A stretch of 64,000 bases of DNA from Phycisphaeraceae bacterium (GTDB lineage: Bacteria; Planctomycetota; Phycisphaerae; Phycisphaerales; UBA1924), in assembly GCA_019636495.1 (NCBI GenBank), contig JAHBXL010000010.1:62001-126000 (forward strand), read 5' to 3'. A program made the position numbers and the translations under genes. Below are positions 4,661 to 58,708 of this stretch, one piece after another. Numbering within the stretch: the stretch's first letter is position 1; every line of letters starts with the position of its first letter. The notes under the pieces were generated by a model. It had not been told where the DNA came from. It ran no database searches and worked only from the letters and a program-made list of their open reading frames with translations.

Positions 4661-7279
4661 GTGATTGCGAAGATGATCGGTGGAATCGCCGCGTCGGCGA
4701 TGTGCGCGATGGCTCTGGGCGCGACCACGCCGCCGCGACAGGCGGAGTTCGCGCCGGATGTCAGCGCGGATGTTCTGGCCAAGTTGCGCCAGCAGGAGTT
4801 GGAGGCGAACCTGCCCGCGCCGCAGGTGCCGAGCGGGCCGCAGATGCGCGGGCCATGCCTGTACTCGGTCACGCGGACGCCCGCGTTGGCCATCGTGGAC
4901 AACACGACAGTTTCCGACACCATGACAACCGGCGGCGACCCGATCTCCAACCTGCGCGTGCAGTTGAACATCTTGCACACCTGGCAGGGCGATGTTTCCG
5001 TGCGCCTGCGCCACGATGCCTCGGGAACAGAGATCACGCTGATCGACCGTCCCGGCTCACCCCAGTCGAGCGCCTTGGGCTTCAGCAACGACAACTTCGG
5101 CAACAACACGACGAACGTGCCGTTTGTGCTGACGGATTCTGCCGCGACTACCTATGACTTTCCGCAGGTGGCTGCGCCGGGGATCACCAATGTCACCGGC
5201 GACTGGCTGCCGGATGATCCGTTCGCGCAGCAGTTGTCGATCTTCAACGGCCTGACCGCGACCACGACATGGACGCTGTTTGTTCAGGACAGCGCGGGCG
5301 GCGATACGGGCACGGTCGTTCGCTGGACGTTGTGCACGGACAGCCTGCTCGGCCAGGCCGTGCCGACCGGCACCGGCTCGGCCAGCCCGTCGAGCGTTCC
5401 TTCGGGCCAGAACACGACGATCAGTGTGCAGGCATCGCCGGCGGTGAATCCAACGAGCACCGGCATCATGGTTGTGGCCGATCTCAGCCAGATCGGCGGC
5501 TCGGCCAGTCAGTCGCTGTCGGACATGGGCGGCAACCTCTTCCAGCACACGCAACTGGTCACCGCGCCCAACGGCACGTATGTCATCCCCTTCACCGTCA
5601 GCGATGCGCAGGCGCGTTCGAGCAACGGCACGCTCAACGTGACGGTCATCCCGCCGGGCGATGTCTGCACCGCGGCGTTGAACCTGCCCATCGGCGGCTC
5701 GATCATCGCCAACAACACGGGCGCGACCAACGAGACAGGTCTGCCCACATGCAACGGACTCGTGACGTGGAACCTGGGCCTGTGGTTCACCGCCGTCGGC
5801 AACGGCAACCGCTGGAACGTAACCACGTGCAGCCCGAACACCGTGCTGAACACACGCTTGTACGTGTTCCGAGGCTCGTGCGCGGGGTTGACCTGCGTCG
5901 ATGCCCAGACGGCCACGCTCCCGGCGTGTTCGCCCTCCTCGGCCGCCTCGGCTCGCATGTGCTCCGAGTTGGGCGTGACCTACTACTTCCTCGTCACCAA
6001 CGACACCTCCGGCACCGGTCAGTTCGAGATCGCGCTGATCGATGAAGGCGCGTGTGTGAGCAACGACCTGTGCCAGAACGCCGCGCCGCTGAGCGTGCCA
6101 TCGGTCACGGTCGTCAACACCACCAACTCCACGATCGATCTTGGCCCGCCGACGTGCACGACGACGATCGTTCGCGGCGGCGTGTGGTACACGGTCATCG
6201 GCAACGGCAACCGGTATGTCGCCGATACCTGCGATTCGAGCAGCGGGAACTTTGATACTCGGTTGAGCGTGTTCTGCCCCGGTCAGGCCGGCGGCGGGTG
6301 CGGCAATCTCGCTGGCATGGTCTGCATCACCGGCATTGACAACGCAACGCTCGCACCGCCGAACGGGTGCGGCACGGGCAGCCAGCAGTCGCGCGTCGAT
6401 TGGTGCACGCAGGCCGGCGCGACCTACTACATCCTCGTGCACGGCGGCACCGGCACGCAGGGCGCGTTCGGCACGACCACGCTTACGCTTGGGGACTTGG
6501 GCTCGTGCAGCGGCGCCATCGGCTGCCTGCCACTGGGCGGCTGCTGCATCGGCGGCGTGTGCTCGCTTCAGACCCAGCCGGGCTGTGCCGCGCTCAATGG
6601 CTCGTACTTCGGCGACAACACCAACTGCGGCGACGGCGTCGGGCCGACCTATGAGTACACCAGCAACAACCCGCTGGCCATCCCCGACAACACCTGCACC
6701 ACGACCGGCTTCGTTTCCGATTCCCAGGTCGTGTCCGACAGTTTCGTTGTCGGTGATGCAAACGTGCGCGTGCAACTCACGCACACATTCATCGGCGACC
6801 TGCGCATCCATCTCACCAACGGGACCGTGACGGTGGCCGTGTGGGAGCGTCAGTGCGCCGGCAACGACAACATGGATGTCACCTTCGATGATGAAGGCGT
6901 CACCGTGGTGTGCGCCACGCCGACGGTCGGCACATACCGCCCCGCGGGCGTGGGTGCCGGCCCGCTCAGCCTGTTCGATGGCCAGCCCTCGGCCGGCACA
7001 TGGACGCTGCGCGTCTGCGATGGCGCAGGTGCCGACGTGGGCACGGTCAGCAGTTGGACCCTCATTCTGCGCGAGCAGGACGGCTCCCTCTGTGGCGCAC
7101 CGACCTGCCCGGCGGACTGGGACGGCAACAACACCGTCGAGGTCAACGACATCTTCGCGTTCCTCGGTGACTGGTTTGCGGGCATCCCCGCCGCGACGAA
7201 CTTCGGCGGCACGCCCGGTGTCCCGGCGATCTTCGCCTACCTGACCGCCTGGTTCGCTCACGGCATCGGCCCCTGCTGA
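4661..7279 (+). CDS. Secreted two-P-domain protein with GC-type dockerin-like C-terminus
   Basis: An 872-residue secreted protein starting at GTG, with AAGGAAGGTGG just upstream. A signal peptide (about 1-21, ending ALGA) is followed by a proprotein-convertase P domain (about 72-228: LNILHTWQGDVSVRL, DSAGGDTGTVVRW). Then come an Ig-like 'choice-of-anchor X' domain (about 230-335), two PPC-like beta domains (about 336-465 and 466-625), a Cys-rich GGCCIGGVCS insert (626-656) and a second P domain (about 660-810: LTHTFIGDLRIHL). The C-terminus (816-872) has DWDGNNTVEVNDIFAFLGDW and ends HGIGPC. No protease catalytic domain is seen, so the P domains are probably adhesion or stability modules. The next gene is a shorter paralogue. 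Confidence 0.85.
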   Translation: MIAKMIGGIAASAMCAMALGATTPPRQAEFAPDVSADVLAKLRQQELEANLPAPQVPSGPQMRGPCLYSVTRTPALAIVDNTTVSDTMTTGGDPISNLRVQLNILHTWQGDVSVRLRHDASGTEITLIDRPGSPQSSALGFSNDNFGNNTTNVPFVLTDSAATTYDFPQVAAPGITNVTGDWLPDDPFAQQLSIFNGLTATTTWTLFVQDSAGGDTGTVVRWTLCTDSLLGQAVPTGTGSASPSSVPSGQNTTISVQASPAVNPTSTGIMVVADLSQIGGSASQSLSDMGGNLFQHTQLVTAPNGTYVIPFTVSDAQARSSNGTLNVTVIPPGDVCTAALNLPIGGSIIANNTGATNETGLPTCNGLVTWNLGLWFTAVGNGNRWNVTTCSPNTVLNTRLYVFRGSCAGLTCVDAQTATLPACSPSSAASARMCSELGVTYYFLVTNDTSGTGQFEIALIDEGACVSNDLCQNAAPLSVPSVTVVNTTNSTIDLGPPTCTTTIVRGGVWYTVIGNGNRYVADTCDSSSGNFDTRLSVFCPGQAGGGCGNLAGMVCITGIDNATLAPPNGCGTGSQQSRVDWCTQAGATYYILVHGGTGTQGAFGTTTLTLGDLGSCSGAIGCLPLGGCCIGGVCSLQTQPGCAALNGSYFGDNTNCGDGVGPTYEYTSNNPLAIPDNTCTTTGFVSDSQVVSDSFVVGDANVRVQLTHTFIGDLRIHLTNGTVTVAVWERQCAGNDNMDVTFDDEGVTVVCATPTVGTYRPAGVGAGPLSLFDGQPSAGTWTLRVCDGAGADVGTVSSWTLILREQDGSLCGAPTCPADWDGNNTVEVNDIFAFLGDWFAGIPAATNFGGTPGVPAIFAYLTAWFAHGIGPC

Positions 7280-7370
7280 TCGCCGGTTCTTCAAAGGAGC
7301 CCCGGGGCTGACCCTGCGGCACTTTGTCCACCTATTCAGGGCCCCTGTCCATTGCGGACGGGGGCCCTTT
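7103..7370 (+). repeat. Tail repeat copy A (dockerin-like coding end plus terminator)
   Basis: This 3' coding end, stop codon, 42-base trailer and terminator region match copy B at 9562-9830. From 7103 to 7321 the two copies differ at only a handful of bases by eye. The terminator hairpins that follow are similar in sequence and loop. It indicates recent duplication or gene conversion between the two paralogues. Confidence 0.85.
7338..7370 (+). terminator. Rho-independent-like terminator after the first P-domain gene
   Basis: AGGGCCCCTGTCC pairs with GGACGGGGGCCCT around the loop ATTGC, followed by a short T run (TTT). Confidence 0.7.
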
Positions 7371-7442
7371 GCCTTTCGGGCGAGCGGCGGATTGGCCATG
7401 CGTATTTTGTTAGGATTTTTCTGGCGAAATGCGCAAGTTCCG

Positions 7443-7472
7443 CTGGCAATGAGGGGAAGGCCGTGGTACTTT
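7443..7472 (+). promoter_or_regulatory. Candidate extended -10 promoter of the second P-domain gene
   Basis: TGG-TACTTT at 7464-7472 resembles an extended -10. A CTGGCA 18 bases earlier (7443-7448) is a weak -35. It is 112 bases before the GTG start, the same placement as at the upstream paralogue. Confidence 0.35.
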
Positions 7473-7575
7473 GATGGGACGTGTACCGCCGCGCGCGCGA
7501 CTGGCGCGGCACCCGGGTTGAACTTGTCCGAAGCGAGTTCGGAGTAGGTTGTTCCATTTGAAAGGAAGGTGGATC

Positions 7576-9738
7576 GTGCAGATGAGGTATCTCGGTTGTG
7601 TTGCGCTCAGCGCAACGTGCATGCTGGCGATGACCGCCGGCGCCAAGCCGCCGCAGCAGGCCGAGCCGGTGACCGATGCCGCGACTCAGGCCAAGATGAA
7701 ACTGCAGCAGCAGTTGCTGGAGAAGGCGGGCCTGGTCGGCGATGAGGGCGCTGCCCCGGGCGGCTTTGCCCTTCGCGGCCCATGCCCCAACACCGCGGTG
7801 CGCACGCCGGCACTTGGGATCATTGACAACTCGACCGTGTTCGACACCATGTCGACCGCGGGCGATCCGCTCTCGAACGTCAAGGTGGAACTGAACATCC
7901 TCCACACCTGGCAGGGCGACGTCACGGTGTCGCTGCGCCACGAGGCGAGCGGCACCGAGGTCACGCTGATCAACCGGCCCGGCAACCCGCAATCGACCTT
8001 CGGCTTCAGCAACGACAACTATGGCGACAACGGCTCGGGGATCCCGTTCGTCCTCGACGACTCCGCGGCGACGACCTACGACGTTCCCCAGGTCGCTGCG
8101 CCGGGGATCACCAACGTGACAGGTTCGTGGCTTCCCGACGATCCGTTCTTCCAGACGCTTGCGGCGTTCAACGGCCTGACGGCGAACACAACGTGGACGC
8201 TGAGCGTGACCGACAGCGCGGGCGGCGACATCGGAACGGTGGTGCGCTGGGCCATCTGCTCGGACAACGCGCTGGGTACATCGCAACTGAGCGCGACAGG
8301 CACCGCCGCGCCGCCCGCCGTGGTGTCGGGCGACAACGTCGTCCTCAACGTTCAAGTGACTCCTGCCGTTGCACCGCCCAGCACGGGGATCACGGTCGTC
8401 GCCGACCTGAGCCAGATCGGCGGCTCGGCTTCGCAGTCGTTCACCGACATGGGCGGCAACCTCTTCAGCCACACGCAGATGGTCTCGGCCCCCTTCGGCG
8501 CGTACTCCTTGCCCTTCACCGCGACCGATGCGGAGGCGCGCTTCGTCGCCGGCAACATTGCCGTTACGGTCGTGCCGTCGAACGACAACTGCCCCGGCGA
8601 AGTCGTGACGGCCCCAAGCAACACCTTTGGAACCACGAACGGCACCACGCCCTCCGGCAACGTCCTCTGCGGCGTGAACAGCCGCGACGTGTTCTACAAC
8701 TTCACGCCGACCGTCAGCGGCGAGTACACCATCGACACCTGCGGCACGACCTGGGACACCCGCCTGTCAGTCTTCACCGACTGCCCGGCTGCGTCGATGG
8801 TCGGCTGCAACGACGATGCTTGCGGTCTGCAGTCGCGCCTCATCCTCAACCTCGATGCGAACACGACGTACTACATCCGCGTCTCGGCGTTCGCGCTGGC
8901 CGGCGGCGGCGACTTCGTGCTCAACATCTCCGCCCCACCGATCCCGACGGGCGGCTGCTGCATCGCGGGCGTCTGCTCGGTTTCGACCGAGGCCGATTGC
9001 AACAACGCCGGCGGCGACTACCTCGGTGATAACACGGGCTGCCCGAGCGCCAACTTCACCGCGAGCAGTTCGCCGAATCTGCCGATTCTTGACAACAGCA
9101 CGGCGACCACGGACATCGTGATCGCCGCGGGCGAGACGATCACCGACCTCGATGTCGGCCTGTTCATCACCCACACCTTCCAGGGCGATGTCAGCGTGGC
9201 GCTCGAGCATGTCGACACCGGCACGTTCGTCACGCTCATCTCGCGTCCGGGCCAGCCTCAGACCACCTTCGGCTTCGGCAACGACAACTACGGCGACGCG
9301 GGCACGAACACCCCGTTCGTTCTCGACGACTCCGCGGCCATGGTCTACGACGTTCCCAACGTCGCCGCGCCTGGCATCAACAACGTCAGCGGCTCCTGGC
9401 TGCCCGATACCGGCCCGCTCTCGGCCTTTAACGGCCTGAACTCGGCCGGCACCTGGCGCCTGCACGTCTCCGACAGCGCGGCCGGCGACATCGGCACCCT
9501 GACGTTCTGGGGTCTGATCGTCAATGGCGGCGGCGGTTCCAACCCCTGCGACGATGTGGGCACCTGCCCGGCGGACTGGGACGGCAACAACACCGTCGAG
9601 GTCAACGACATCTTCGCGTTCCTCGGTGACTGGTTTGCGAGCATCCCCGCCGCGACGAACTTCGGCGGCACGCCCGGTGTCCCGGCGATCTTCGCCTACC
9701 TGACCGCCTGGTTCGCTCACGGCATCGGCCCCTGCTGA
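7576..9738 (+). CDS. Secreted two-P-domain protein with GC-type dockerin-like C-terminus (paralogue)
   Basis: A 720-residue paralogue of the preceding gene. The GTG at 7576 is chosen because the preceding AAAGGAAGGTGGA is the same leader as at 4661. An ATG six bases later is possible. Order of modules: signal peptide (ends about MTAGA), P domain (about 70-225: LNILHTWQGDVTVSL, DSAGGDIGTVVRW), Ig-like choice-of-anchor X (226-335), one PPC-like domain (336-455, against two in the paralogue), Cys-rich GGCCIAGVCSVSTEADC (459-490), second P domain (492-655: FITHTFQGDVSVALE), and the dockerin-like end (664-720). Its last 57 residues differ from the paralogue's by one visible substitution (Gly to Ser after DWFA). 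Cargo or ligand unknown. Confidence 0.85.
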   Translation: MQMRYLGCVALSATCMLAMTAGAKPPQQAEPVTDAATQAKMKLQQQLLEKAGLVGDEGAAPGGFALRGPCPNTAVRTPALGIIDNSTVFDTMSTAGDPLSNVKVELNILHTWQGDVTVSLRHEASGTEVTLINRPGNPQSTFGFSNDNYGDNGSGIPFVLDDSAATTYDVPQVAAPGITNVTGSWLPDDPFFQTLAAFNGLTANTTWTLSVTDSAGGDIGTVVRWAICSDNALGTSQLSATGTAAPPAVVSGDNVVLNVQVTPAVAPPSTGITVVADLSQIGGSASQSFTDMGGNLFSHTQMVSAPFGAYSLPFTATDAEARFVAGNIAVTVVPSNDNCPGEVVTAPSNTFGTTNGTTPSGNVLCGVNSRDVFYNFTPTVSGEYTIDTCGTTWDTRLSVFTDCPAASMVGCNDDACGLQSRLILNLDANTTYYIRVSAFALAGGGDFVLNISAPPIPTGGCCIAGVCSVSTEADCNNAGGDYLGDNTGCPSANFTASSSPNLPILDNSTATTDIVIAAGETITDLDVGLFITHTFQGDVSVALEHVDTGTFVTLISRPGQPQTTFGFGNDNYGDAGTNTPFVLDDSAAMVYDVPNVAAPGINNVSGSWLPDTGPLSAFNGLNSAGTWRLHVSDSAAGDIGTLTFWGLIVNGGGGSNPCDDVGTCPADWDGNNTVEVNDIFAFLGDWFASIPAATNFGGTPGVPAIFAYLTAWFAHGIGPC

Positions 9739-9830
9739 TCGCCGGTTCTTCCAAAGAGCCCCGGGGCTGACCCCGCGGCAATCTGATCGCACTCATCCAA
9801 GGCCCCCGTCCATCGCGGACGGGGGCCTTT
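9562..9830 (+). repeat. Tail repeat copy B (dockerin-like coding end plus terminator)
   Basis: Partner of the repeat at 7103-7370. Identity continues past the stop codon through the trailer GATCGCCGGTTCTTC and into the terminator. Confidence 0.85.
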
Positions 9831-9833
9831 TTC
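9799..9833 (+). terminator. Rho-independent terminator after the second P-domain gene
   Basis: AAGGCCCCCGTCC pairs perfectly with GGACGGGGGCCTT around ATCGC, followed by a T run. This is a textbook intrinsic terminator. Confidence 0.85.
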
Positions 9834-9919
9834 CAGTGGTTCTGCGGTCAATCCGATCGTTCTCGGGCCGCATCGCGGCGAGGATTCCGCGAAAACCCCT
9901 GTGTCGTGCGTCGAACCGG

Positions 9920-9928
9920 TGGTACATT
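9920..9928 (+). promoter_or_regulatory. Candidate extended -10 element upstream of the M1 peptidase gene
   Basis: TGG-TACATT, 121 bases before the ATG at 10041. It shares the TGGTAC core with the two upstream genes. No good -35 is seen. The gap from 9739 to 10040 holds only this and the terminator at 9799-9833. Confidence 0.33.
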
Positions 9929-10040
9929 GAATACGAACAGCAACCTGCACGCTCACCCGGCGGGGTCCGCCTCCGGCGTTCGGCCGGTCCATCGGGCGCG
10001 TGCGCACGGCGTGTCGATCGTTCCAACCCAGAGAGGTCCG

Positions 10041-12428
10041 ATGCTCGCGATTCTTCCCCCCCGCGCTCGCGTCGCGTGCGCCGCAGTCGTTGGCGCATTG
10101 TTGTTCGCTCCCTTTGCCGCTGGGCAGTCTGCCGCGGGCCAGGAGCGCGCCCGCCGCAGCCTGCTGGACTTTGACCAACTCGAGCACGCCGAGTACGACG
10201 AGCACGTCGGCTGCGGGAAGGCGTGCGTCTATCGCCAGGCGTGGGAGGCGCGCTTCGGCGAGGGACGCGGCGGCGAGGATGGCGAGGGCGCGGGCGATGC
10301 GTGGATGCGCGGGATTGTCGACACGACCGATCTCATCCACTGCGACCTGTCGCTGGAGATCTTCCCCAGCAACGAGAACATCAGCGGCACCAACGTGATG
10401 CTGATCGAGAGCCTCGTCGACGGGCTGTCGTCGTTCACCTTCCGGCTGCGCAGCCAGTTTGTCATCAGCAACTGCACGGTGACCGATTCGGTCGGCAGTT
10501 ACACCGTCACCCCGACCAGCCCGCCCGCCAACTCCTATGGGCGCACCATCACCTTGCAGCGCGCTGTGAACGCGGGGCAGCAGTTCACGGTGTCGATCAC
10601 GTACTCGGGCCTCGCCGTGTCGCGAGGGTTCGGGTCGATCACCTTCGGCACCCAGGGCGGGAATCCGATCGTCTCGACGCTCTCCGAGCCGTACTTCGCC
10701 GCGACGTGGTGGCCGTGCAAGGATGGGGACTTCCAGCAGCCGGGGAACAACGGCGACAAGTTCACGATGACGATGGCGATTACCGCGCCCGCCGCGCTGC
10801 GGGCCGTCTCCAACGGCCTGTTGCAGGGGATCGATGTCCTCCCCAGCAGTCGCCGCCGCCACCGCTGGGCGACGAACTACCCGATGTCGACGTATCTCGC
10901 GGCGTTCAGCGCGACCAACTACAACACGTGGACGGTCGACTACGTGCACCCCGAGGGGGTCATGCCGGTCGAGTTCAACATCTACCCCAACTCCGATACC
11001 CCGGCCAACCGTGCCGCGTGGGAACTGTGCGTGCCGATGCTGCACGCCTTCCGGCCGATCTTCGGCGAGTACCCGTTCATCGACGAGAAGTACGGCATCT
11101 ACCAGTTCCCGTTCGGCGGCGGCATGGAGCACCAGACCAACTCCGGGCAGGGCACCTTCAACGAGGGCGTGACGGCGCACGAACTCGGGCACCAGTGGTG
11201 GGGCGACATGATCACGTGCACGACGTGGCACGACATCTGGCTCAACGAGGGGTTCGCGACGTACTCTGAGGCGTTGTGGTTCGAGCGCAAGCCCGGAAGC
11301 AGCGGGCTGCCCGCGCTGCACGCGCACATGGCCTCGCGCCGTCCGGGGTCGGTCAACGGCACGGTCTACTGCTTCAACGTGTCGGACCCCAACCGCATCT
11401 TCTCTTCGGACTTCAGTTACCGCAAGGCCGGCTGGGTGCTGCACATGCTCCGCAAGGCCGTCGGCGACGACACGTTCTTCGCGATTCTTGCCGAGCACCG
11501 CGCCCGGCACGCCTATCGCGGGGCGACCACCGCGCAGTTCATCGACGCGGCGAGCGACGCCGCGGGGCAGGACCTGTCGTGGTTCTTCGATCCCTGGCTC
11601 TTCCAGCCGGGCGCGCCCGCGTACGAGTTCGGCTGGCAGAACGCGACCATCGGCGGCAGCCCGTACGTGCGCCTGCGCATCCGCCAGACCCAGAGCGCTT
11701 CGTACCCGATCTACACCATGCCCATCGATGTACGCGTGACCACCGGCGCGGGGGTGGAGACGTTCACGGTTCACAACTCCGCGGCCGAGCAGCACTACCT
11801 GTTGCCGGTCAGCGCCTCGGCCAGCGCGCTATCGCTCGACCCCGAGGACTGGATCCTGAACACGGGCAAGACCCAGACGACCTATGCCGCCGGTCCGCCG
11901 AAGATCGTGAGCATCTCGCCCGCGCCCGGGCAGGAGTTCGCGCACGACGCCGCGCCGACGCAGGTGACGCTGCTGTTCAGCGACGGCGTTCTGGCGGGCG
12001 CGAACGCGTTTGCCATGGATGGTCCCGGCGGCTCGGTGAGCATCAGTTTCGCGCAGGGCTCGGCCGTCTCGACGCGCACCGTGACAATCAACTCGCCGCT
12101 GACGCCCGGCACCTACACCGTTACCGCGGGCAACTCGATCTCGCTCCCCGCGGGCACGCTGCTCGATGGCGAGATCGATGACCCGATGTCCGGCCCGCTG
12201 CCCACCGGCGACGGGCTGGCCGGCGGAAACGCGGTGTGGTCGTTCGTCGTGCTCGGCGGTCCCTGCACGGTCGATCTCAACGACAGCGGCGATGCCGATG
12301 TGGAGGACCTGTTCCTCTTCCTTGCGCTTTGGTTCGCAGCAGACGAGGCCGCGGACTTTGATGGCGAGAACGGGGTCGGCGTTTCCGACATTTTCGCGTT
12401 CCTCGCGGCGTGGTTCGCGGGATGTTGA
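10041..12428 (+). CDS. Secreted M1-family zinc aminopeptidase with dockerin-like C-terminus
   Basis: A 795-residue secreted metallopeptidase. The ATG has GAGAGG four bases upstream, and a signal peptide ends near AAGQ. The M1 N-terminal beta domain starts around residue 95. GGGMEHQT (about 359-366) stands in for the GAMEN substrate motif, and HELGHQWWGD (380-389) gives zinc ligands His380 and His384. The third ligand is Glu403 in NEGFATY, at exact M1 spacing. A bacterial Ig-like domain (about 620-735) precedes the C-terminal module (742-795), which has two D-rich halves, VDLNDSGDADVEDLF and FDGENGVGVSDIFAFL, and ends WFAGC. The active site is intact, so it should cleave N-terminal residues from external peptides. 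It sits among four other proteins with the same C-terminal module. Confidence 0.92.
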   Translation: MLAILPPRARVACAAVVGALLFAPFAAGQSAAGQERARRSLLDFDQLEHAEYDEHVGCGKACVYRQAWEARFGEGRGGEDGEGAGDAWMRGIVDTTDLIHCDLSLEIFPSNENISGTNVMLIESLVDGLSSFTFRLRSQFVISNCTVTDSVGSYTVTPTSPPANSYGRTITLQRAVNAGQQFTVSITYSGLAVSRGFGSITFGTQGGNPIVSTLSEPYFAATWWPCKDGDFQQPGNNGDKFTMTMAITAPAALRAVSNGLLQGIDVLPSSRRRHRWATNYPMSTYLAAFSATNYNTWTVDYVHPEGVMPVEFNIYPNSDTPANRAAWELCVPMLHAFRPIFGEYPFIDEKYGIYQFPFGGGMEHQTNSGQGTFNEGVTAHELGHQWWGDMITCTTWHDIWLNEGFATYSEALWFERKPGSSGLPALHAHMASRRPGSVNGTVYCFNVSDPNRIFSSDFSYRKAGWVLHMLRKAVGDDTFFAILAEHRARHAYRGATTAQFIDAASDAAGQDLSWFFDPWLFQPGAPAYEFGWQNATIGGSPYVRLRIRQTQSASYPIYTMPIDVRVTTGAGVETFTVHNSAAEQHYLLPVSASASALSLDPEDWILNTGKTQTTYAAGPPKIVSISPAPGQEFAHDAAPTQVTLLFSDGVLAGANAFAMDGPGGSVSISFAQGSAVSTRTVTINSPLTPGTYTVTAGNSISLPAGTLLDGEIDDPMSGPLPTGDGLAGGNAVWSFVVLGGPCTVDLNDSGDADVEDLFLFLALWFAADEAADFDGENGVGVSDIFAFLAAWFAGC

Positions 12429-12622
12429 ACAACGTCGGGCATCGGCTGGTGGCGGCGCACATCGGGAGTTGGACGCGACGTGTCGAAGGGCCGGAACCCC
12501 GCGCGGCCAGGCGGTGACGGCGATGTTTGTGCGCATCAGAATCTCACGACCCCACGGCGTAGCCGCCGATGCTGAGCCCCGGACCGGGGCGGGTGCTGGC
12601 ACGCGCGTGCGAGGGCTGAGGC

Positions 12623-14149
12623 ATGAACTTGGTGAGGAACCGTGGTTGGAGCGGCCGCGCTGCGGCGTGCGTGGGGCTGCTGGCGACCGCCGCGGCGGTG
12701 CATGGGCAGGGGCGTGTCCTGCATGTTGACGACGATGCGCCCGCCGGTGGCGATGGGCAGTCGTGGAGCAGCGCGTTCCGATCTCTTGCCGAGGCTCTGC
12801 AACTGGCCCAAGCCTGGCAGGCGCAGCACGGCGGCGGCGTGTGCCTGAAAGTCGCGCAGGGGACCTATGTGCCGGGGCATCCGGATTCCGATCGGCACTC
12901 GACGTTCCTGTTGCTCAGCGGGTTGACGCTCCGCGGCGGGTTTGCAGGCATCAACGCCGCGAATCCCGACGAGAACGATCCCGGCCGGTTCGCCACCGTG
13001 CTCTCGGGCGATCGTTTCGGGGACGATCAGCCGGGCTTCCTGAACCGCGCGGACAACGTTCTGCATGTCGTGACCATCGGCGAGCCCGTGCTCGAGCCCG
13101 CGCTCACCGGGTTCACGATCCGTGGCGGGCACGCCGATGGGGAGGGCGATCATGGGCGCGGGGCGGGGATCCGGGCCGCGCATCCGCATGCTTCCTGCGC
13201 GGTGGTGAACTGCGTGATCACCGACAACTACGCCGTGATGGGCGGGGGGTTTGCAACGTCGCCGGTCGCCAGCGGGCTGACCGCGTTCATCGGCTCATCG
13301 TTTGTCGCGAACCGCGCCGAGATGTCCGGCGGGGCCGCGTGGTTCGGGCAAGCGTACTTCGAGAACTGCACGATGGTCTCGAATGAGGCCGACCATGGGG
13401 GCGGCGCATACTCGCACGGCCGGGCGATGCTCGCCGGTTGCGCCGTGTGGGGCAACACGGCCGCACGGGGCGCGGGCGTCTACGCCGCGGGCGGTTTCGT
13501 GGAACTGACGGCCTGCACGATGGTCAACGCCGCGGCGCAGCACGGCAATGACCTGCTGCTCGCCGGCGGGGCCGCGGCGGTTGTCCGCGGGACAATCCTC
13601 GCGGGTCGCGCTCCGCACGTGCACGTCGGCGACTCGTGCGCCATGGAGTCGTGGTTCAATCTCGCGGCCGATTCGCTCGGCCCCACATTGACGTCGGCGA
13701 CTTCGGTATTCGTTGACGTTGGCAGCCTTGTCGGATCGCCGCGCTTCGCGGACCCGCTGGGGCTTGACGGCGTCGCCGGCACGCCGGACGACGACCTTCG
13801 TCTCCTGCCCAACTCTCCGGCGATCGACGCCGGAGTGTTCGTCTCGCCGTGGTTCGAGGAGCAACTGAACCTGGATGCCGCGGGCGCGCCGCGCGTCGTG
13901 GACGACCCCGGCATGCCGAACATCGGCGTGGGCGCTGGCGGCGCGATGGACATCGGCGCCTACGAGTTCCAGGGCGTGAGTTGTCGGGCTGACCACAACG
14001 GCGATGGGCAGGTTGGTGTGTCCGACATCTTCGCCTTCCTCATCGACTGGTTCGCGCAGCGCGCGGATGCCGACTTCGACCGCGACCGACAGACGGGTGT
14101 CGCCGACATCTACGGCTTCCTCACGGCGTGGTTTGCCGGGTGTCCGTAG
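12623..14149 (+). CDS. Secreted right-handed beta-helix protein with dockerin-like C-terminus
   Basis: A 508-residue protein with a signal peptide (about 1-29, ending VHGQ). Then comes VDDDAPAGGDGQSWSSAFRSL, the usual start of planctomycete choice-of-anchor-Q/beta-helix proteins. The body (about 35-395) has short strand repeats such as NCVITDNYAVMGGGF, SSFVANRAEMSGGAAW and CTMVSNEADHGGGAY, typical of a parallel beta-helix. LLPNSPAIDAG and MDIGAYEFQG (about 394-450) are the family's characteristic end. The last 58 residues hold two DxDxDGxxxxxDIxxFL half-sites and end WFAGCP. No catalytic residues for polysaccharide lyase activity are identifiable, so substrate binding or surface structure is as likely as enzymatic action. 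Confidence 0.82.
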   Translation: MNLVRNRGWSGRAAACVGLLATAAAVHGQGRVLHVDDDAPAGGDGQSWSSAFRSLAEALQLAQAWQAQHGGGVCLKVAQGTYVPGHPDSDRHSTFLLLSGLTLRGGFAGINAANPDENDPGRFATVLSGDRFGDDQPGFLNRADNVLHVVTIGEPVLEPALTGFTIRGGHADGEGDHGRGAGIRAAHPHASCAVVNCVITDNYAVMGGGFATSPVASGLTAFIGSSFVANRAEMSGGAAWFGQAYFENCTMVSNEADHGGGAYSHGRAMLAGCAVWGNTAARGAGVYAAGGFVELTACTMVNAAAQHGNDLLLAGGAAAVVRGTILAGRAPHVHVGDSCAMESWFNLAADSLGPTLTSATSVFVDVGSLVGSPRFADPLGLDGVAGTPDDDLRLLPNSPAIDAGVFVSPWFEEQLNLDAAGAPRVVDDPGMPNIGVGAGGAMDIGAYEFQGVSCRADHNGDGQVGVSDIFAFLIDWFAQRADADFDRDRQTGVADIYGFLTAWFAGCP

Positions 14150-14238
14150 CGTCTTTGCGATTCCTTTGCGCTGTCTTGTCGTCATCTTGACTTTGTCAAG
14201 AGGGTTCGTGTGCGGCCGAATGGGTATGTTTCGTCCCC

Positions 14239-15249
14239 ATGCAGGACTGCGCGCCACGACGACCCATCGACGACCGCCGCGACGCACAACGCCGCGCAGG
14301 GCCGGGGGCGTTCACGCTCATCGAACTGCTCGTCGTCATCGCGATTATCGCGATCCTCGTGTCGCTGCTGCTGCCCGCGCTGAGCGGCGCGCGCGAGGCC
14401 GCGCGGCAGACTCAGTGTGTTTCCAACGTCCGCCAACTCGCGCTCGCGGCGACCATCCACGCCTCCGACAAGCGCGGACAGTTCTCCACCGGCCCGTTCG
14501 AGGACCGGCCCAACCGCGGGTACGGCCGGATGGAGGAGGTCGGCTGGGTCGCGGACTACGTCATCGGCGGGTACGCGATTCCCGGTCGCATTCTGTGTCC
14601 GAGCAGCCCCTCGCGCGCCAGCCAGGCGCTGTCGCTGCTGCGGCTGGGCAGTTGGCCCGACCGGCCAAGCGGCCCGCAGTTCGTGACCGACATGATCGCC
14701 CAGGGCTTCAACACCAACTACTGCCAGTCGTGGTACATGGCGTACACCGCGCCGAGGGACTACGCCGCGACCAGCGCCGACATGAAGAACCCGGCAAACG
14801 TGATCGGCCCTTTGAACGAGCGATTCCTCGGGGCGCAGGCGCAGCCGGAGAAGGTGCCGCTGTTCGGCGATGGCTCGACGCAGTTCAGCCAGTCCGACGA
14901 CGTGGTGATGACGACGACCGGCACGATGCAGGGCAGCAAAACCGTGACCGATGGTCCGACCATCGCGTTCATCCCCGGGCAGGGCGCGCGCTTCGGCCGG
15001 CAGAACTACACCGATTTCGGCCCTGCGCACGGCAAGGGGACGTTCATCGGCGGCCTGGCGGGTCATAACCGGATCTACGGCACCCTGGGCTTTGCCGATG
15101 GGCACGCGGAAGTGATCGCCGAGCGGCGGGTGGACAAGGAGTGGGGGCACCAGAACGCAACGATCAACGGCATCAGCACGATCCGCTATGACGAACTGGA
15201 GGGCAAGGTCTTCGGCGGCTGGCTGAACAAGCCGGGCCTGGCCTTCTGA
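14239..15249 (+). CDS. DUF1559-type pseudopilin-like protein
   Basis: A 336-residue protein with a prepilin-type N-terminus. A 24-residue basic leader is followed by [24 protein letters not shown], with Phe25 as the mature first residue and Glu29 as the conserved +5 Glu. The residue before the cut is Ala, not the usual Gly. The next segment [21 protein letters not shown] and the late FADGHAEVI motif are those of the large planctomycete H-X9-DG family. It should be processed by prepilin peptidase and sit in the inner membrane or a pseudopilus. It lies between two dockerin-tagged genes on the same strand, 89 bases after the beta-helix gene. A second, unlinked member is at 40359-41201. Function unknown. 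Confidence 0.85.
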
Positions 15250-15363
15250 GGCGCATGCTTCGCGCGATCTTCACGCCCGCGGCGAGAGTTGCGATGTAAG
15301 TTTATGTTCATGAGCCGCGGTCCGCGCGGCCGGTCAACGACCCGACACGAGGAGGATGTCAAG

Positions 15364-18093
15364 ATGCTCGGACGGATGAACCAGTGTGTCTGCGCGATCG
15401 GCGCGGCGATGGCCCTTGCCGCCCTCGCTCCGGCCCAGACCGTCATTACCCAGTGGACCTTCAACTCCAACCCGCCCGATGGGAACACCGCCACGGGCAC
15501 GTTCTCGCCCGCAGTGGGGCTGGGAACTGCCGCGTGCTACAACGTGCTGCCCGCGATCCCGCTGGTCGAGTGCATCTTCGCCAACGGGGCGGGCTCGACC
15601 GACCCCGGGGCCGACAACTCCGGCTGGCAGACCCGCGGCTACCAGAACCAGGGCGAAAACCCCGGCCTGGTCGGCGTCGAGTTCGCCGCCGATACCAGCA
15701 ACTTCACCGGCATCGTCATCTCGTGGGACCACCGGCACTCCAACACGTCGAGCCGGTGGGTCAACCTGTTCTACTCGGTCGACGGCGTGAACTTCGTCGA
15801 AGCGCCGAGCGCGCCCTTCGAGGGCAACGCGGGCGACACCTGGTTCAACGACCGCACGGTGGACCTGTCAGCCATTTCCGCTGCGAACAACAACCCGAAC
15901 TTCAAGTTCCGCATCTCGCCGGTGTTCGCGCCCAGCACCTCGCAGTACGTTGCCGCGAACGGGGCCTCGACCTACGCCTCCACCGGCACGCACCGGTTCG
16001 ACATGGTCACGGTCCGCGGCACCGCAACCGGCTCAATCCCGCCGTCGGTTGTCGCGACGGCGGCACCCGGCGCGGTGTGCGCGGCGGGCGGGCTGATCAC
16101 GCTGTCGGCCGTCGTGGTCCCCGGCTTGCTCCCCGATTCAACCGGCCTGGCCGTCACGGCGAACCTGACCGACGTGGGCGGTGGCGCGGCGGTCGCGCTG
16201 CTCGATGACGGCCTGAACGGCGACGAGTTCGCGGGGGACAACATCTTCACGCTCCGGTACACCGTGCCCGCGGGAGTGAGCATCGGCGCCAAGACGATTC
16301 CCATCACTGTCAGCGATGCGCAGTCGCGGTCCGGGTCGACCAATGTCTCCTTCGCGGTCGCCGACTGCTCGGTGAACTCCTCCTCGCGCGTCGTCATCAG
16401 CCAGGTCTATGGCGGCGGCGGGAATCTCGGCCCGCCGGCGGGCGTCTTCAACGCCGACTTCGTCGAGATTCACAACCGCTCCGCGATGCCTGTGGATCTG
16501 ACCGGCTGGAGCGTGCAGTACGCAAGCCAGGCCTCGCTCAACGGGTTCGATAACCCCGCCGACCGTGTCGAACTCTTCGGCGCAATCCAGCCAGGGCAGT
16601 ACATGCTCGTGCAGTTCTCCGCCATCGGCGCGGCGGGCGCGCCGCTGCCCACGCCCGACTTCGTCGGCACCGGCGGCATGGGCAACAACGGCGGGCGGGT
16701 CGCGCTGGTCCGCGGCACCGCGCTCATCGGCTCGAACTGCAATGACCCGAACATCGAGGACTTCGCGGGGTACGGCGCCGCGATCTGCTTCGAGGGCGCA
16801 GCGCCCGCGGGACGCACCGAGAACAACACCGGCGCGGTGCGCAAACTCGCCGGCGCGCAGGATACGGACCAGAACTTCCATGACTTCGAGATCGCCGCTC
16901 CTTCGCCGCGGAACCGGTCGTTCGGCGGGTTCCTCGCCGGTTACCCGTCCATCGCGCCCGAGGCGGTGTCCGCGGGGGAGAGTGTGTCCTTCACCGTCAA
17001 CGTGTCCGCCGCGACCACGCCCCCGAGCACGGGCGTCCAGGTCCGCGCGAATCTGTCGTCGATCGGCGGCACGGCGAACCAGTTGCTCACCGACAACGGC
17101 GGCGGCGTGTGGACGCTCAACTATGCGATTCCCGCAAGCGTGACCCAGGGTGTCAAGTTGGTGCCCATTACGGTGACGGATGCGCAGTCGCGCTCCGATT
17201 CGTCAGCGGTGTCGCTCCGCGTGGCGACCTGCATCGACTCGGCCGCGCGGATCGTCGTCAGCGGGTTCTTCGGCGGCGGCGGGAACGCCGGTGCGCCGTT
17301 CGACTCGGATCACATCGAGATCTTCAACCGTTCGCAGTCCGCCGTTGATGTGAACGGCTGGAGCGTGCAGTACTCCGATGGCTCCAACGCCACGGGTTTC
17401 ATTGCTTCGCGCGTGGTGCCGCTCTCGGGCGTCATGGGCCCGGGCGAGTACCGGCTGATCCGCACCAACCTGCCGGGCAGCAACGGTGTGCCGATCCCGA
17501 CGCCGGACTTCCTCCCCGCCGCGCCCTTCGGCATGGACAACGCGAACGGCCGCATCGCGGTGGCACGCACAACCGATGCGCTGGGCGCGGATTGCGGCAG
17601 CGCGCTGATCGAAGACCTCGTCGGCTACGGCGCGGCCCTCTGCCAGGAGGGCATCGGCACCACGCCGGCGATCAGCAACATCTCGGGCGGCTACCGCCTG
17701 CTCGAGGGTTGCCGCGACACAGACCAGAACCTGCTCGACTTTGTGATCGCCGAGCCGCTGTTCTTCCCGCGGAACAGCGCAAGCCCCGCGAACTTGTGCC
17801 CCGCGCCCAGCACCGGCGCGTGCTGCACGGGGAGCATCTGCACGATCACCACTGCCGCGGCGTGCAGCGGGACGTTCTACGCGGGCGCGGCGTGCAACGC
17901 GCCGGGCAACAACACGACTCCGTGCTGCCTGGCGGACTACGACCAGAGCGGGACGGTGAACGTGCCGGACATCTTCGCGTTCCTGGCGGGCTGGTTCGCG
18001 GGAGATGCTCGAGCCGACTTCAACAACTCCGGCGGGTCGGATGTGCCGGACATCTTCGCGTTCCTTGCCGCGTGGTTCGCCGGATGCCCGTAA
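15364..18093 (+). CDS. Secreted lamin-tail-domain protein with dockerin-like C-terminus
   Basis: A 909-residue secreted protein. The ATG at 15364 is chosen because AGGAGG at 15350-15355 lies eight bases upstream. An in-frame ATG at 15304 lacks this. Signal peptide (ends LAPAQ), N-terminal beta domain (about 30-215), then an alternating pair: Ig-like domain (220-335), lamin-tail domain (340-500, VVISQVYGGGG...FVEIHNRS...GWSVQYAS), Ig-like (520-622), second lamin-tail (628-795, IVVSGFFGGGG...IEIFNRS). A Cys-rich insert GACCTGSICTITTAAAC (817-855) leads to the C-terminal module DYDQSGTVNVPDIFAFLAGW, repeated as FNNSGGSDVPDIFAFLAAW and ending FAGCP. Lamin-tail domains in secreted bacterial proteins often accompany nucleases, but none is fused here. 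Confidence 0.87.
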   Translation: MLGRMNQCVCAIGAAMALAALAPAQTVITQWTFNSNPPDGNTATGTFSPAVGLGTAACYNVLPAIPLVECIFANGAGSTDPGADNSGWQTRGYQNQGENPGLVGVEFAADTSNFTGIVISWDHRHSNTSSRWVNLFYSVDGVNFVEAPSAPFEGNAGDTWFNDRTVDLSAISAANNNPNFKFRISPVFAPSTSQYVAANGASTYASTGTHRFDMVTVRGTATGSIPPSVVATAAPGAVCAAGGLITLSAVVVPGLLPDSTGLAVTANLTDVGGGAAVALLDDGLNGDEFAGDNIFTLRYTVPAGVSIGAKTIPITVSDAQSRSGSTNVSFAVADCSVNSSSRVVISQVYGGGGNLGPPAGVFNADFVEIHNRSAMPVDLTGWSVQYASQASLNGFDNPADRVELFGAIQPGQYMLVQFSAIGAAGAPLPTPDFVGTGGMGNNGGRVALVRGTALIGSNCNDPNIEDFAGYGAAICFEGAAPAGRTENNTGAVRKLAGAQDTDQNFHDFEIAAPSPRNRSFGGFLAGYPSIAPEAVSAGESVSFTVNVSAATTPPSTGVQVRANLSSIGGTANQLLTDNGGGVWTLNYAIPASVTQGVKLVPITVTDAQSRSDSSAVSLRVATCIDSAARIVVSGFFGGGGNAGAPFDSDHIEIFNRSQSAVDVNGWSVQYSDGSNATGFIASRVVPLSGVMGPGEYRLIRTNLPGSNGVPIPTPDFLPAAPFGMDNANGRIAVARTTDALGADCGSALIEDLVGYGAALCQEGIGTTPAISNISGGYRLLEGCRDTDQNLLDFVIAEPLFFPRNSASPANLCPAPSTGACCTGSICTITTAAACSGTFYAGAACNAPGNNTTPCCLADYDQSGTVNVPDIFAFLAGWFAGDARADFNNSGGSDVPDIFAFLAAWFAGCP

Positions 18094-20590: not shown

Positions 20591-21493
20591 TCAGGCGGGG
20601 GAGGAGGAGTTGGGATCAAACTCCAGCGCGTAGTTGAACGCGCCGGGCAGGCCCAGCACGTAGTGCGTGACCTGCACGTAGTACGTGCCCGGCGCGAGGT
20701 CGGCGAGACTCAGCGAGGTCTGGCCCATGTAGCCCGCCGCGAAGCCGATCGATTCGCGGTCGGCGGTGAAGAGCGACAGGTTGAACGGCGTGTCGGAGTA
20801 GATCCGCACGGCGGCGGCCGCGCCGGGGGCGGAGGCGATCGTGAAGCGGAAGATGTCGTAGGTGTCGTCGAGCGTTTGAAGGATCGAGAACGGAGCAGCG
20901 AGGGCGCCGAGATTCGGCGAGCCCGCCGCGCCGGGCGTCGCGGCATCTACACCTGCGAACGTGTCGTTGGCCTCGCCGGGGGTCTGTGTGTCGCCGCCAT
21001 CGGGCGTTCCGCCGGTCGGCGCCGAGATGGTCAGGCGGTAGTTGGGATTTGTCGCGCCATCCCGCCCGGTGATGCTGACCATGTACCACCCCCGCGCCAG
21101 GCCGTTCAGGCTGATGGCCTCGGTCGGGGAGTTGGTCTGGCTGGAATCGATCAGCACCCGGCCGCGGCCGTTGTAGAGGTTCAGGTCGAGATTCCCGGCC
21201 TTGTTTCGGAAGGTGATGGCAACCTCGTCGCCGGGGCCACCCTGCCGGGGCAGTCGGAAACGGAACCAATCCGCCGAGTCGGCCAACACAAGGCGGCGAA
21301 GGTCAACGTCTGCATGAAGATCCCCAAGATTGGGGCTATTCGGACCGTTGCCGGCGTTCAGGACCTGCCGCGGGACATCGTTCTGTTCGTAAACATCGTC
21401 CAGCAAAACAGTTGCATCAAGTAGCCGTCTGGGTTCAAGGGCTTCGAGCAGGTGCTGAGCGCACATTCCGCGGGTCGAGTTGAGCAGTTTCAA
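20591..21493 (-). CDS. LEPRRLL-motif surface protein with two PPC-like domains
   Basis: A 300-residue secreted protein. The N-terminus carries LEALEPRRLLDA at residues 16-27, the planctomycete LEPxRRLL export/anchor motif, in place of a classical signal peptide. Two beta-sandwich repeats follow, of the PPC (pre-peptidase C-terminal) type, about 35-155 and 185-295. The first has DSADWFRFRLPRQGG...VAITFRNKAGNLDLNLYN and the second DTYDIFRFTIASAPG...PFNLSLFT with LADLAPGTYYVQVTHYV. The domains are joined by a Gly/Thr/Pro linker. No enzyme domain is present. It ends nine bases from the convergent pheA stop. It is divergent from the giant LEERRLL protein at 22131. Confidence 0.85.
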   Translation of the reverse strand: MKLLNSTRGMCAQHLLEALEPRRLLDATVLLDDVYEQNDVPRQVLNAGNGPNSPNLGDLHADVDLRRLVLADSADWFRFRLPRQGGPGDEVAITFRNKAGNLDLNLYNGRGRVLIDSSQTNSPTEAISLNGLARGWYMVSITGRDGATNPNYRLTISAPTGGTPDGGDTQTPGEANDTFAGVDAATPGAAGSPNLGALAAPFSILQTLDDTYDIFRFTIASAPGAAAAVRIYSDTPFNLSLFTADRESIGFAAGYMGQTSLSLADLAPGTYYVQVTHYVLGLPGAFNYALEFDPNSSSPA

Positions 21494-22130
21494 TGGTTGC
21501 CTCCCGATCAGTTTGACCGGGCCTTGGGATCGGGCAGTGGGGCACGGCTCGCCAACTGCCCATCGGAGTGGCCAATGTCAGGCGATAGAGGTTGCCGGTG
21601 GTGTGGGCTGGCCGCGGAATACGGGTCCGGATAACTCCGCAGTGGCCGAGCGGGCGAGCATTTGACAACCAGAAGGCAATCCGCCGATCGGGTGAAACCG
21701 GGATGGCGCAGGGTCCGTATCGCGCACGACCCGGGATTCCATCCGACGCGATCGGGCGGATTCCCGGGCTGGAAACGGAGAGCCGGCATCGACTTGCGGG
21801 CGTGCAGCGCATCCGTTAGTCTGCCGGTTCGCGGGCCGCTGGAGCGCTCCGATGGACACCGGGGTTCGGCAGCGCATCGGCAACGGCCCACCCGGCCCGC
21901 GACAGGCGGGCGCCGCCCGCGAGGCACGACGCTTTGGCTGACACGAACTGTCGGCCCTATCGTCCCGGCCAATTGCGGGCGAAGGACACGCGGCTCGCGG
22001 GAGCCGCCGCCCCACCAGAAGTCCCCGCGTCCGGCACGAACGCCGGTCGCCGCAGCCGTCCAGAGGACATCCCGTCCGCCGCATGCGCAAAGTCGCCGCG
22101 GCGGGCCCCGCAGCCAAGGCAGGAGTCGCC
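21494..22130. other. 637-base intergenic region between two divergent surface-protein genes
   Basis: No convincing gene, RNA or repeat was found. A GTGGCCGAGCGGGC near 21643 looks like the D-arm of a Ser/Leu tRNA, but no acceptor stem or T-arm follows. A TTGACA at 21662 has no AT-rich partner at -10 spacing. The region should hold the two divergent promoters, and a long leader for the 3147-residue gene is possible. Confidence 0.4.
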
Positions 22131-57270: not shown

Positions 57271-58058
57271 GACGCCTCCGGTTCGGGGGCTGGGGGTGCT
57301 GCGGGATCGTTGTGCGGCTCGTCCGAAGGGTCGTCCGGCTCGGGGTCCGGGTCGGGGTCGTGTGCGGGATCGTCCGGTGGTGCGCCGGGATCGGCCGCGG
57401 GCGAGGCGGGGCCGCTCGGGGAGGCGGCGGGGGATGGCTGGGCCGGCGGCTCGCTCGAAGGAGGCTGCGCGGGCGATGAGGCCGGCGCGGCGTCCTGCGG
57501 GGCGAGCAGCGTCGAGCCCTGGCCGAGCACGGGGCGCGTCACAACGCTGTCGCGCTGGAACAGGTCCACATCGAACTCGACGCCCTGCCACTCGATCCGT
57601 GCCGACCACGGAGCGTTCATCGACACGATCTTCACGCCGCGGCCGGATTCGCCCAGGCGCACGCGCTGCCCATCGTTGAACCACACCTGGTTGTTCACCA
57701 TGGCGGTGATGGCGGGCCCGCCGTAGCGCGTGGGCTTGGGCGGTTCGCGCGGGGTGGTGTCGACGACGACATCCTGTCGCGGCGGGCGCGGCCGCGGCGG
57801 AACAAAGAACAGCGATCGGCCGTTGACCTGCGAGCCGTGTGCCGCGAGGGCCTCGGCGAAGCGCTGCAGGCGCGCCGCATCGTCGACCTGCTCGCGCTCG
57901 GTCGGCGCGGGAAGCACCGCGGCGCGAAGGAGGGGCGCGGCCTGCGCGCCCAGCCAGCCGAGCGTCAGCAGCACCACGACCAGAACCAGTGCGCCGAGCC
58001 AGCGCGGCCCGCCGCCCCGAGACCGAAGACCCAGCAGGAGCGATGTCATGCGGCTCAT
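57267..58058 (-). CDS. GspC-like inner-membrane protein of the T2SS
   Basis: A 263-residue protein. One membrane segment (about 19-41) lies near the N-terminus, followed by a linker and a small domain with VNNQVWFNDGQRVRLGES and MNAPWSARIEWQGVEFDVD, comparable to the homology region of GspC or a PilP-like protein. The C-terminal 75 residues are rich in Pro, Asp, Glu and Ser (for example PDPDPEPDDPSDEP). Position between M and D, together with 4-base overlaps on both sides, points to a link between inner membrane and secretin. Start ATG 58058 is fixed by the overlap with the stop of the upstream gene. Confidence 0.75.
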   Translation of the reverse strand: MSRMTSLLLGLRSRGGGPRWLGALVLVVVLLTLGWLGAQAAPLLRAAVLPAPTEREQVDDAARLQRFAEALAAHGSQVNGRSLFFVPPRPRPPRQDVVVDTTPREPPKPTRYGGPAITAMVNNQVWFNDGQRVRLGESGRGVKIVSMNAPWSARIEWQGVEFDVDLFQRDSVVTRPVLGQGSTLLAPQDAAPASSPAQPPSSEPPAQPSPAASPSGPASPAADPGAPPDDPAHDPDPDPEPDDPSDEPHNDPAAPPAPEPEAS

Positions 58059-58708
58059 GGGCGCACCCCCGCGCTGCCTGCGAGCGATGCGCCGGCCGAG
58101 TCCGGCGCGGCGATCCACGTTTCGACGGCGATCGAAGCGCGCACATCTCGCCCCGTACCGGTCTGGCCTGTTCGCGAGCGGCCCGCGCCGCTCTTGTCGA
58201 TCCGCACGCGCGAGACCGCAGTCACGTCGCGCGCGTTCTCAAGGTCCGACAGAATCGCCACCACCACCGCCGGCTCCGCGTCGAAGGAGACATCGAGCAC
58301 GTACCGGTCCAGTCGATTGCCGAGCCCGACGACGCCCGCGGCCTCGTCGGACCGGATCGCCGCGGAGCGCTCGCTGTACGTCGCGTTCGTCACGCCGTGC
58401 CGGATGAGCACGGCGTTGACAGTGCGCTGCAGCACCTCGGGCCGGGCGCCGGGCTCTGCCGGGTGACGCGGCAGGCCGAAGTTGTCCATGCCCAGTTCGA
58501 GCATCCGCCCTGTGTCGGACTCGGGTGCCAGCAGTCGCCGCTCGCGCTGCAGGGCCGATTCGAGGTTGTCGGCCCGCGTCCGTGCCGCGTTGGTCGCGTC
58601 CAGCACCGGTTCAACGACCAGCAGGTACGCGCCCACGAACAGCACGAACAGCACCAGCCATCGTCCCGCGCGCGGCATGCGGAGATATGCATCGAACAGC
58701 GCGTTCAC
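58055..58708 (-). CDS. gspM: GspM/PilO-like inner-membrane protein of the T2SS
   Basis: A 217-residue protein with one membrane segment (about 16-34: RWLVLFVLFVGAYLLVVEP), a coiled-coil-like region (about 40-65), and a ferredoxin-like domain. GTG at 58708 is fixed by the GTGA overlap with the upstream gene. Position after the GspL-like gene and topology match GspM/PilO. Sequence identity to enterobacterial GspM is not apparent, so the call rests on order and topology. C-terminus has charged, Gly-rich stretches. Confidence 0.75.
   Translation of the reverse strand: MNALFDAYLRMPRAGRWLVLFVLFVGAYLLVVEPVLDATNAARTRADNLESALQRERRLLAPESDTGRMLELGMDNFGLPRHPAEPGARPEVLQRTVNAVLIRHGVTNATYSERSAAIRSDEAAGVVGLGNRLDRYVLDVSFDAEPAVVVAILSDLENARDVTAVSRVRIDKSGAGRSRTGQTGTGRDVRASIAVETWIAAPDSAGASLAGSAGVRP

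Follow-up and report, generated by a model that had tools for sequence, protein, structure and literature searches.

Why should five neighbouring genes that encode otherwise unrelated proteins all end in the same short module? This question is raised by positions 4661-18093 of a 64,000-nucleotide stretch of contig JAHBXL010000010.1 from a Phycisphaeraceae bacterium (the whole stretch is referred to here as the window), where five plus-strand open reading frames (ORFs; products P1 to P5) carry a C-terminal tag. An earlier reading made from the letters alone, the sequence-only reading, had described the five genes as adjacent, their products as otherwise unrelated and the tag as a dockerin-like sorting, anchoring or assembly signal with paired DxDxxG half-sites and a terminal Cys that may be an attachment point. 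The five tagged ORFs were confirmed, and domain scans of P1-P5 bear out that the bodies are unrelated (two P-domain proteins, an M1 peptidase, a choice-of-anchor Q protein and a double lamin-tail protein), but the genes are not strictly adjacent, as an untagged gene at 14239-15249 intervenes. The C-termini align over 54-57 residues with Cys6 and Cys59 invariant (alignment A1, numbered by its first row) and end, from P1 to P5, in GPC, GPC, GC, GCP and GCP. Each tag has an extra Cys immediately before the first loop, which was overlooked in the sequence-only reading. The paired half-sites are found in P3, P4 and P5 but not in P1 and P2, where TNFGGTPGVPAIFAYL stands in place of the second DxDxxG and therefore the first calcium loop alone survives. 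The answer that we consider rather probable is that the tag is a clasped dockerin module acting as a plug, by which an exported protein docks onto one shared, probably non-cohesin, extracytoplasmic partner.

The tag already has a name in NCBIfam (NF041540, "GC-type dockerin domain-anchored protein"), although the phrase "GC-type dockerin" was not found in the literature searched. P3, P4 and P5 exceed the NF041540 cut-off of 29, while the two P-domain proteins do not reach it (scores in Table 1). When a profile of the tag was compared with the PDB, the best match was a dockerin (2y3n_B, E 2.1e-10). Two tandem calcium loop-helix repeats are present in tag sequences, and PF00404 (dockerin type I) matched 50 of 78 tags at E ≤ 0.01; the P5 tag alone had no Pfam match. 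A single tag gave no match to the PDB with phmmer, and a first AlphaFold model, made from five rows, gave no fold match. Based on NF041540, PF00404 and the best PDB profile match, the tag is a real dockerin-like module, as had been proposed, and one that is far commoner than the window shows. The ligand residues of its loops suggest that it may bind calcium.

Tags were recruited from the source genome of the window (4.08 Mb, 35 contigs, 96% complete) with NF041540 at E ≤ 0.01, which gave 125 matches in 123 frames versus none in 14 control genomes. The 114 frames with a match ending at most 30 residues from the stop were kept as C-terminal tags, and nine frames with internal dockerin-like repeats were excluded. 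With 138 frames from relatives, the set comprised 252 frames, or 243 unique tags after removal of nine duplicates (frames C19:5 and C22:99 of the source genome are one sequence at contig ends, and C1:306831 is doubtful). These were parsed as 219 full tags (98 from the source genome, 49 from G125, which belongs to another family than the window's, 46 from G106, from another family of the class, and 26 from other genomes), 16 half-tags and eight unparsed tags that were discarded. G125 was sampled nearly whole (56 matches) and G106 in part (72 matches). Anchors were set by hand in three misparsed full tags; 12 half-tags of the source genome and one of G125 (L213) are true by eye, and the three other G125 calls were judged to be misparses. 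By form, the 114 tags of the source genome comprise 68 with two loops (or other), 34 of type B, counted by a motif rule, in which FGGTPGVPAIFAFL or similar replaces the second loop, and 12 half-tags consisting of a single loop-helix. Seven large frames of this genome (L049, L082, L083, L088, L090, L092; C31, C34, C2, C1, C22) contain an internal tag-like pair, VPFLLTPGDH..., followed by about 200 to more than 300 residues, in several cases beyond the fetched stretch; the region after the pair is presumably an RHS-type core.

A profile search across relatives, suggested with the original proposal, found the tail throughout the window's family (f1) and in most of family f4. When 248 genomes of the class were surveyed, each of the 16 f1 genomes sampled had at least 22-23 matches and 13 of 15 f4 genomes had matches, while the tag is near-absent from f2 (0/4), f3 (2/11) and f5 (0/2). 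Across the phylum, 15 of 294 genomes matched at E ≤ 1e-4; 13 belong to the class and two do not. Within the source genome, 50 of the 114 tags are clustered, at least two together at a spacing of at most 5 kb, and the window's five are among the two largest clusters. The bodies are diverse: scanning at most the last 640 residues of each of the 114 proteins identified 63 Pfam families in 85 of them, with body types that include subtilases, M12B and M14 peptidases, P-domains, Ig, FG-GAP and propellers.

What is new here is the role of the tag's cysteines, whose co-variation is the signature of a clasp and not of a free attachment point. The N-cap Cys, three residues before the first-loop Asp (CxAD), recurs about as regularly as the terminal one. 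Among the 219 full tags, 179 have both, 28 have neither, nine have only the C-terminal and three only the N-cap Cys (Fisher test per genome, before anchor corrections: source genome 1.6e-5, G125 2.6e-11, G106 0.11, mixed 0.028). When pairs of similar tags within a genome differ at the N-cap, the C-terminal Cys changes in the same direction in 27 of 37 pairs, in the opposite direction in none and is unchanged in 10, versus 3, 3 and 31, respectively, in a control pairing against the linker Cys. A second pair in the source genome (the position that precedes the loop and the one that precedes the helix-2 Trp) is Cys at both positions in eight tags, at neither in 90 and at one alone in none. Likewise, the G125 linker has a pair of Cys in 37 tags, lacks Cys in 12 and never has a single one; given the pseudo-twofold symmetry of dockerins, this linker pair may be the symmetry mate of the N-C pair. 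A loop-1 Cys is found in five of the nine C-terminal-only tags versus six of the 179 with both, so that a lost partner is in some cases made good elsewhere. The Cys total is even in 190 of 219 tags, whereas 5000 shuffles gave 142 on average and 168 at most. In a dockerin of Clostridium thermocellum, Tyr-5 is reported to stack on Pro-66, joining head and tail (PMC4728124, in the part of the paper available). Because the co-varying pairs lie near the ends that stack in that protein, we read them as disulfide clasps, and the N-cap and terminal Cys are likely to form such a clasp at the head-to-tail contact of the dockerin fold. The available parts of the literature searched on dockerin, disulfide and clasp do not describe a disulfide clasp in a dockerin. 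Both Cys are also present in 109 of 111 database tags, but this is no independent test, because these tags (118 used of the 120 matches listed, from 221 found) were chosen by similarity to the canonical tag and include at least three proteins of the source genome.

The residues that the helices present were compared among the source genome, G125 and G106 (53, 43 and 41 two-loop tags, respectively, at less than 75% identity). In both repeats the most genome-specific positions are 14, 10 and 21, with identities of 0.75, 0.64 and 0.85 within genomes and 0.01, 0.05 and 0.27 between them; in 300 label shuffles, no position had a difference above 0.05. The same residue occupies both repeats at these positions in 0.80, 0.72 and 0.85 of tags. 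Tags of one genome differ among themselves at position 7 of the loop (0.15) and position 15 of the helix (0.26), and therefore recent copying is not the whole cause. Several helix residues that are largely uniform within but different between genomes are as expected if one partner meets all tags, and from this pattern a partner shared by all tags in a cell is likely. Cohesin contacts reported for the C. thermocellum dockerin are S11-T12, K18-R19 and L54; by our own mapping, in which the published numbers are one above ours, positions 10 and 21 coincide with cohesin contacts (PMC4728124, in the part available). Position 11 also ranks high in a seven-genome set, which includes top-scoring picks (the tags of G225, G046, G013 and G189, two of 40 of which were unparsed).

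The partner is probably not a cohesin. In the source genome there was no match to PF00963 at E ≤ 1, nor to A3, a five-row planctomycete cohesin profile to which G066 supplied one row, at E ≤ 0.1. Among the 16 f1 genomes, PF00963 had one match (G096, below the cut-off) and A3 one (G221); in the order, A3 matched four of 61 genomes, including G066. A cohesin-like partner, which had been suggested as something to test for, was thus not found in the source genome, although a cohesin too divergent for both PF00963 and A3 could still be the partner.

Export was assessed by a home-made rule for Sec-like starts. Of the 108 tagged frames complete on the 5' side, 94 passed it; of 108 interior starts taken from these frames, 12 did, and these were chosen as the control because untagged control frames were noisy (36/69). 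Among database proteins (at least three from the source genome), 91 of 117 passed versus 7 of 117 when read from residue 150, and all five window proteins passed. Of the 14 frames with no recognised signal, several are long open frames with a first part that resembles non-coding sequence, and therefore the true start may be further in. The tagged proteins are thus predicted to be exported. No tag was seen on a cytoplasmic protein, and with its C-terminal placement and strong association with Sec-like N-termini the sorting interpretation appears largely right. Relatives of the P5 N-domain at the Flavobacteria-type loci L251 and L253 end in a type IX secretion system (T9SS) type C sorting domain (38.1 and 44.8 bits, with a cut-off of 40), those at L250 and L252 end without a recognised tail (by eye for L252), and choice-of-anchor domains precede the tags (Q and X above their cut-offs, R above it in one scanned protein). 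From these T9SS tails and choice-of-anchor domains, the tag appears to occupy the place of the sorting signals of other lineages. Genes of a type II secretion system (T2SS) are present at 54706-64000 (GspD-like secretin, PilN-like, GspK and GspG above Pfam cut-offs, GspM-like below) and had been named as a candidate exporter. A secretin was found in every one of the 61 genomes sampled from the order, tagged or not, and T2SS was set aside as a tag-specific exporter; exosortase, also in 61 of 61, was set aside as well. Both are therefore uninformative.

Six tags of the source genome lack both end Cys (C12:235395, C23:58660, C13:66505, C35:137385, C22:99 and C32:98043); four of them have HPAD or HVAD for CPAD and stop directly after WFSA or WFGA. 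Among the six that have a complete 5' side, four do not pass the rule for Sec-like starts. The idea that such tags mark unexported proteins was dropped: two have Sec-like starts, and one has what we take to be an LEPRxLL-type start.

The 12 half-tag proteins of the source genome end in a single loop-helix with both Cys (CxAD...WFAGCP). Their bodies, of which ten were scanned with Pfam and eight with NCBIfam, include Ig, kelch, cadherin-like, HYR and choice-of-anchor R-like stretches (the last mostly below that model's cut-off), several having no match, and the eight scanned are below the cut-off of NF041540 or do not match it. If half-tags follow the arrangement of known dockerins, in which each repeat begins opposite the point where the other ends, a single half would be unable to close its clasp in the usual way, but two half-tags could do so by exchange; disulfide-linked dimers of half-tags are a prediction only. 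Two half-tag genes, C30:9093 and C30:11491, lie within 2.5 kb of each other and are a possible natural pair for this idea.

In the mechanism that we propose, Sec would export the tagged protein, and oxidation would close the clasp where head and tail of the fold meet. Residues 10, 14 and 21 would then be shown to a lineage-specific partner by the two similar helices, type B tags would retain these residues in the half that has no calcium, and a half-tag could complete the fold only together with another one. We put forward only tentatively, and with considerable doubt, the fullest form of cohesin-free docking, in which more than 100 exported proteins per cell plug into one receptor that co-evolves with the helix face in each lineage, and half-tags swap disulfides to give covalent dimers of surface proteins.

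Several results weigh against docking of a clasped module onto a shared partner. Beyond the first few, the PDB profile matches are mostly calmodulin-type EF hands, and Foldseek alone gave no significant fold match, and Z did not reach 8. The cysteine association is not significant in G106 alone, because only a single G106 tag lacks both Cys. Both are missing from 28 of 219 tags, four of which have a loop-1 Cys, and therefore the clasp is not essential. In the first parse, single linker Cys occur outside G125 in six tags (four of 46 in G106 and two of 98 in the source genome, one of the latter a misparse); among those of G106, L248 and L165 have a possible loop-2 partner and L152 and L164 do not. 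A tree-based test on supported branches yielded two independent pairs, which is too few. The reported contact positions 11, 17 and 18 are not genome-specific in the source genome, G125 and G106 (PMC4728124, in the part available), and the genome-specific positions 13, 16 and 20 look like core packing and may not belong to a binding face. The analysis identified no partner, and none of the genes tested follows the distribution of the tags. The prediction that a disulfide oxidase would track the tags also failed, the known oxidases being missing where tags are commonest: VKOR is found in 25 of 61 genomes of the order, 23 of them in f2, f3 and f5 and one among the 16 of f1 (the source genome), and DsbB in five of 61 and in none of the 16. 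Both were rejected as the tag's oxidant.

Four other explanations must be weighed against this one. The proposal that the terminal Cys is a point of covalent attachment or processing (sortase-, lipid- or thioether-like) draws on its position, as 0-3 residues separate the last Cys from the stop in all 105 tags of the source genome with a post-helix Cys (in two of which the script misplaced the helix end; nine of 114 lack it) and 0-2 residues do so in all 113 database tags where it was found. However, this Cys co-varies with the N-cap Cys at the opposite end of the tag, which speaks for an internal disulfide. What precedes it is not constant (GC, HGVGPC, PPPC, SPVC), unlike a processing motif, a C-terminal hydrophobic and basic segment was seen by eye in none of the 114 tails of the source genome, and exosortase is present in tagged and untagged genomes alike. 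A dedicated processing enzyme for the tag was not found among the few families tested, and we regard such an attachment as improbable. Binding of a metal or cofactor by the paired Cys, rather than bonding to each other, would also account for their co-variation and agrees with the lack of VKOR and DsbB in most tagged genomes tested. This appears very improbable, as 140 of 219 tags have two Cys only, no conserved extra ligand was seen, and three separate pairs together with the loop-1 compensation fit disulfides better.

The tag might instead be a folded C-terminal cap that needs no partner and simply stabilises exported proteins or aids their export by the T2SS. Clasps and calcium loops are stabilising features, a T2SS is present and no cohesin was found in the source genome; however, a mere cap need not be uniform, and here several helix residues of tags on unrelated proteins are largely fixed within genomes and different between them while positions 7 and 15 vary inside each genome. 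Type B repeats, moreover, keep their helix residues after loss of the calcium ligands (30 tags of the source genome match GVxAIF...W), and a cap alone seems unlikely to us. We are equally doubtful of a classical cohesin-dockerin system (a cellulosome or "planctosome") with a very divergent cohesin. The tag does belong to the dockerin family, its bodies (lamin tail, P-domains, M12B and M14 peptidases) resemble those of the planctosome model (PMC6461901, in the part available), and there are single cohesin-like matches in G096 and G221; against this stand the empty searches of the source genome with PF00963 and with A3, a profile that does match four of 61 genomes of the order.

The features of the cluster are collected in Table 1. 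PF13229, which we take to be a beta-helix family, matches two of ten database relatives of P4, and the nearest named relative of P5 is from a Phycisphaerales bacterium (83% identity in the best segment). Near the cluster, a plus-strand ORF of 3163 residues (22083-31574) matched nothing in Pfam or NCBIfam at E ≤ 0.01. A minus-strand protein at 20591-21493 has a PPC domain, what is presumably an LEPRxLL-type N-terminus and a mid-protein match above the cut-off to a T9SS type A tail model, probably a cross-hit.

Table 1. Tagged proteins, their tags and the intervening gene in the window.
Feature	Position	Strand	Basis
P1: P-domain (PF01483, 2 stretches) protein, Sec-like N-terminus, type B tag	4661..7279	+	sequence, domain scan
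P1 tag: CPAD loop-helix, then FGGTPGVPAIFAYL half without calcium ligands, end WFAHGIGPC	7106..7276	+	NF041540 19.6 bits, below cut-off 29
P2: P-domain protein (3 stretches), GBD_T9SS_assoc domain, type B tag; likely start 7582	7549..9738	+	domain scan
P2 tag, type B	9565..9735	+	sequence; NF041540: no match at E ≤ 0.001
P3: M1 aminopeptidase (PF01433, PF17900); likely start 10041	9906..12428	+	domain scan
P3 tag: two calcium loops, CTVD...FAGC	12264..12425	+	NF041540 31.9 bits, above cut-off
P4: choice-of-anchor Q / beta-helix-type protein	12623..14149	+	family scan, relatives
P4 tag: two calcium loops, CRAD...FAGCP	13982..14146	+	NF041540 33.1 bits, above cut-off
Untagged DUF1559/pseudopilin-like gene between the fourth and fifth tagged genes	14239..15249	+	family scan
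P5: double lamin-tail (PF00932) protein, choice-of-anchor X; likely start 15364	15289..18093	+	family scan
P5 tag: two calcium loops, CLAD...FAGCP	17926..18090	+	NF041540 40.6 bits; sequence

The tag can be placed among known systems with the help of the literature drawn on here (the available parts of PMC5301203, PMC6461901, PMC12484212 and PMC4728124). P3, P4 and P5 pass NF041540 and share its C-terminal place and GC end, whereas P1 and P2, with the second loop lost and a GPC end, and the eight half-tag proteins scanned do not pass. Compared by name, the NCBIfam family refers to the terminal GC only, while here the N-cap Cys is its likely partner. Like the type I dockerins of cellulosomes (PF00404), the tag has a duplicated calcium loop-helix, a clasp position where head meets tail and genome-specific residues at two reported cohesin contacts, but it differs in its likely Cys clasp in place of ring stacking, its hydrophobic helix face, its many kinds of body that are not cellulases and the lack of a cohesin found in the source genome. 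The "planctosome" hypothesis for freshwater Planctomycetes likewise has dockerins on lamin-tail proteins, P-domain proteins and peptidases, but the model requires cohesin domains, including those of anchor and adaptor proteins (PMC6461901, in the part available), and no cohesin was found in the source genome with PF00963 or A3. Like the T9SS C-terminal domain (CTD), PEP-CTERM and GlyGly-CTERM tags, this tag occurs on dozens of unrelated exported proteins, and it shares with the T9SS tail its position on P5-like proteins; unlike them, it is a folded calcium-loop module and not a hydrophobic anchor.

The NCBI name, judged as a name, points to the terminal Gly-Cys without a role, and the data presented here give that Cys a testable job. 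For experimenters, a sortase-like step is not the first thing to seek. The search for a receptor is also better defined, its object being lineage-specific, probably not a cohesin, and shared by about 100 exported proteins in the source genome and dozens in relatives. If this explanation is true, the dockerin would be a general surface plug that works without a cohesin, and half-tags would give nature an easy way of making covalent protein dimers.
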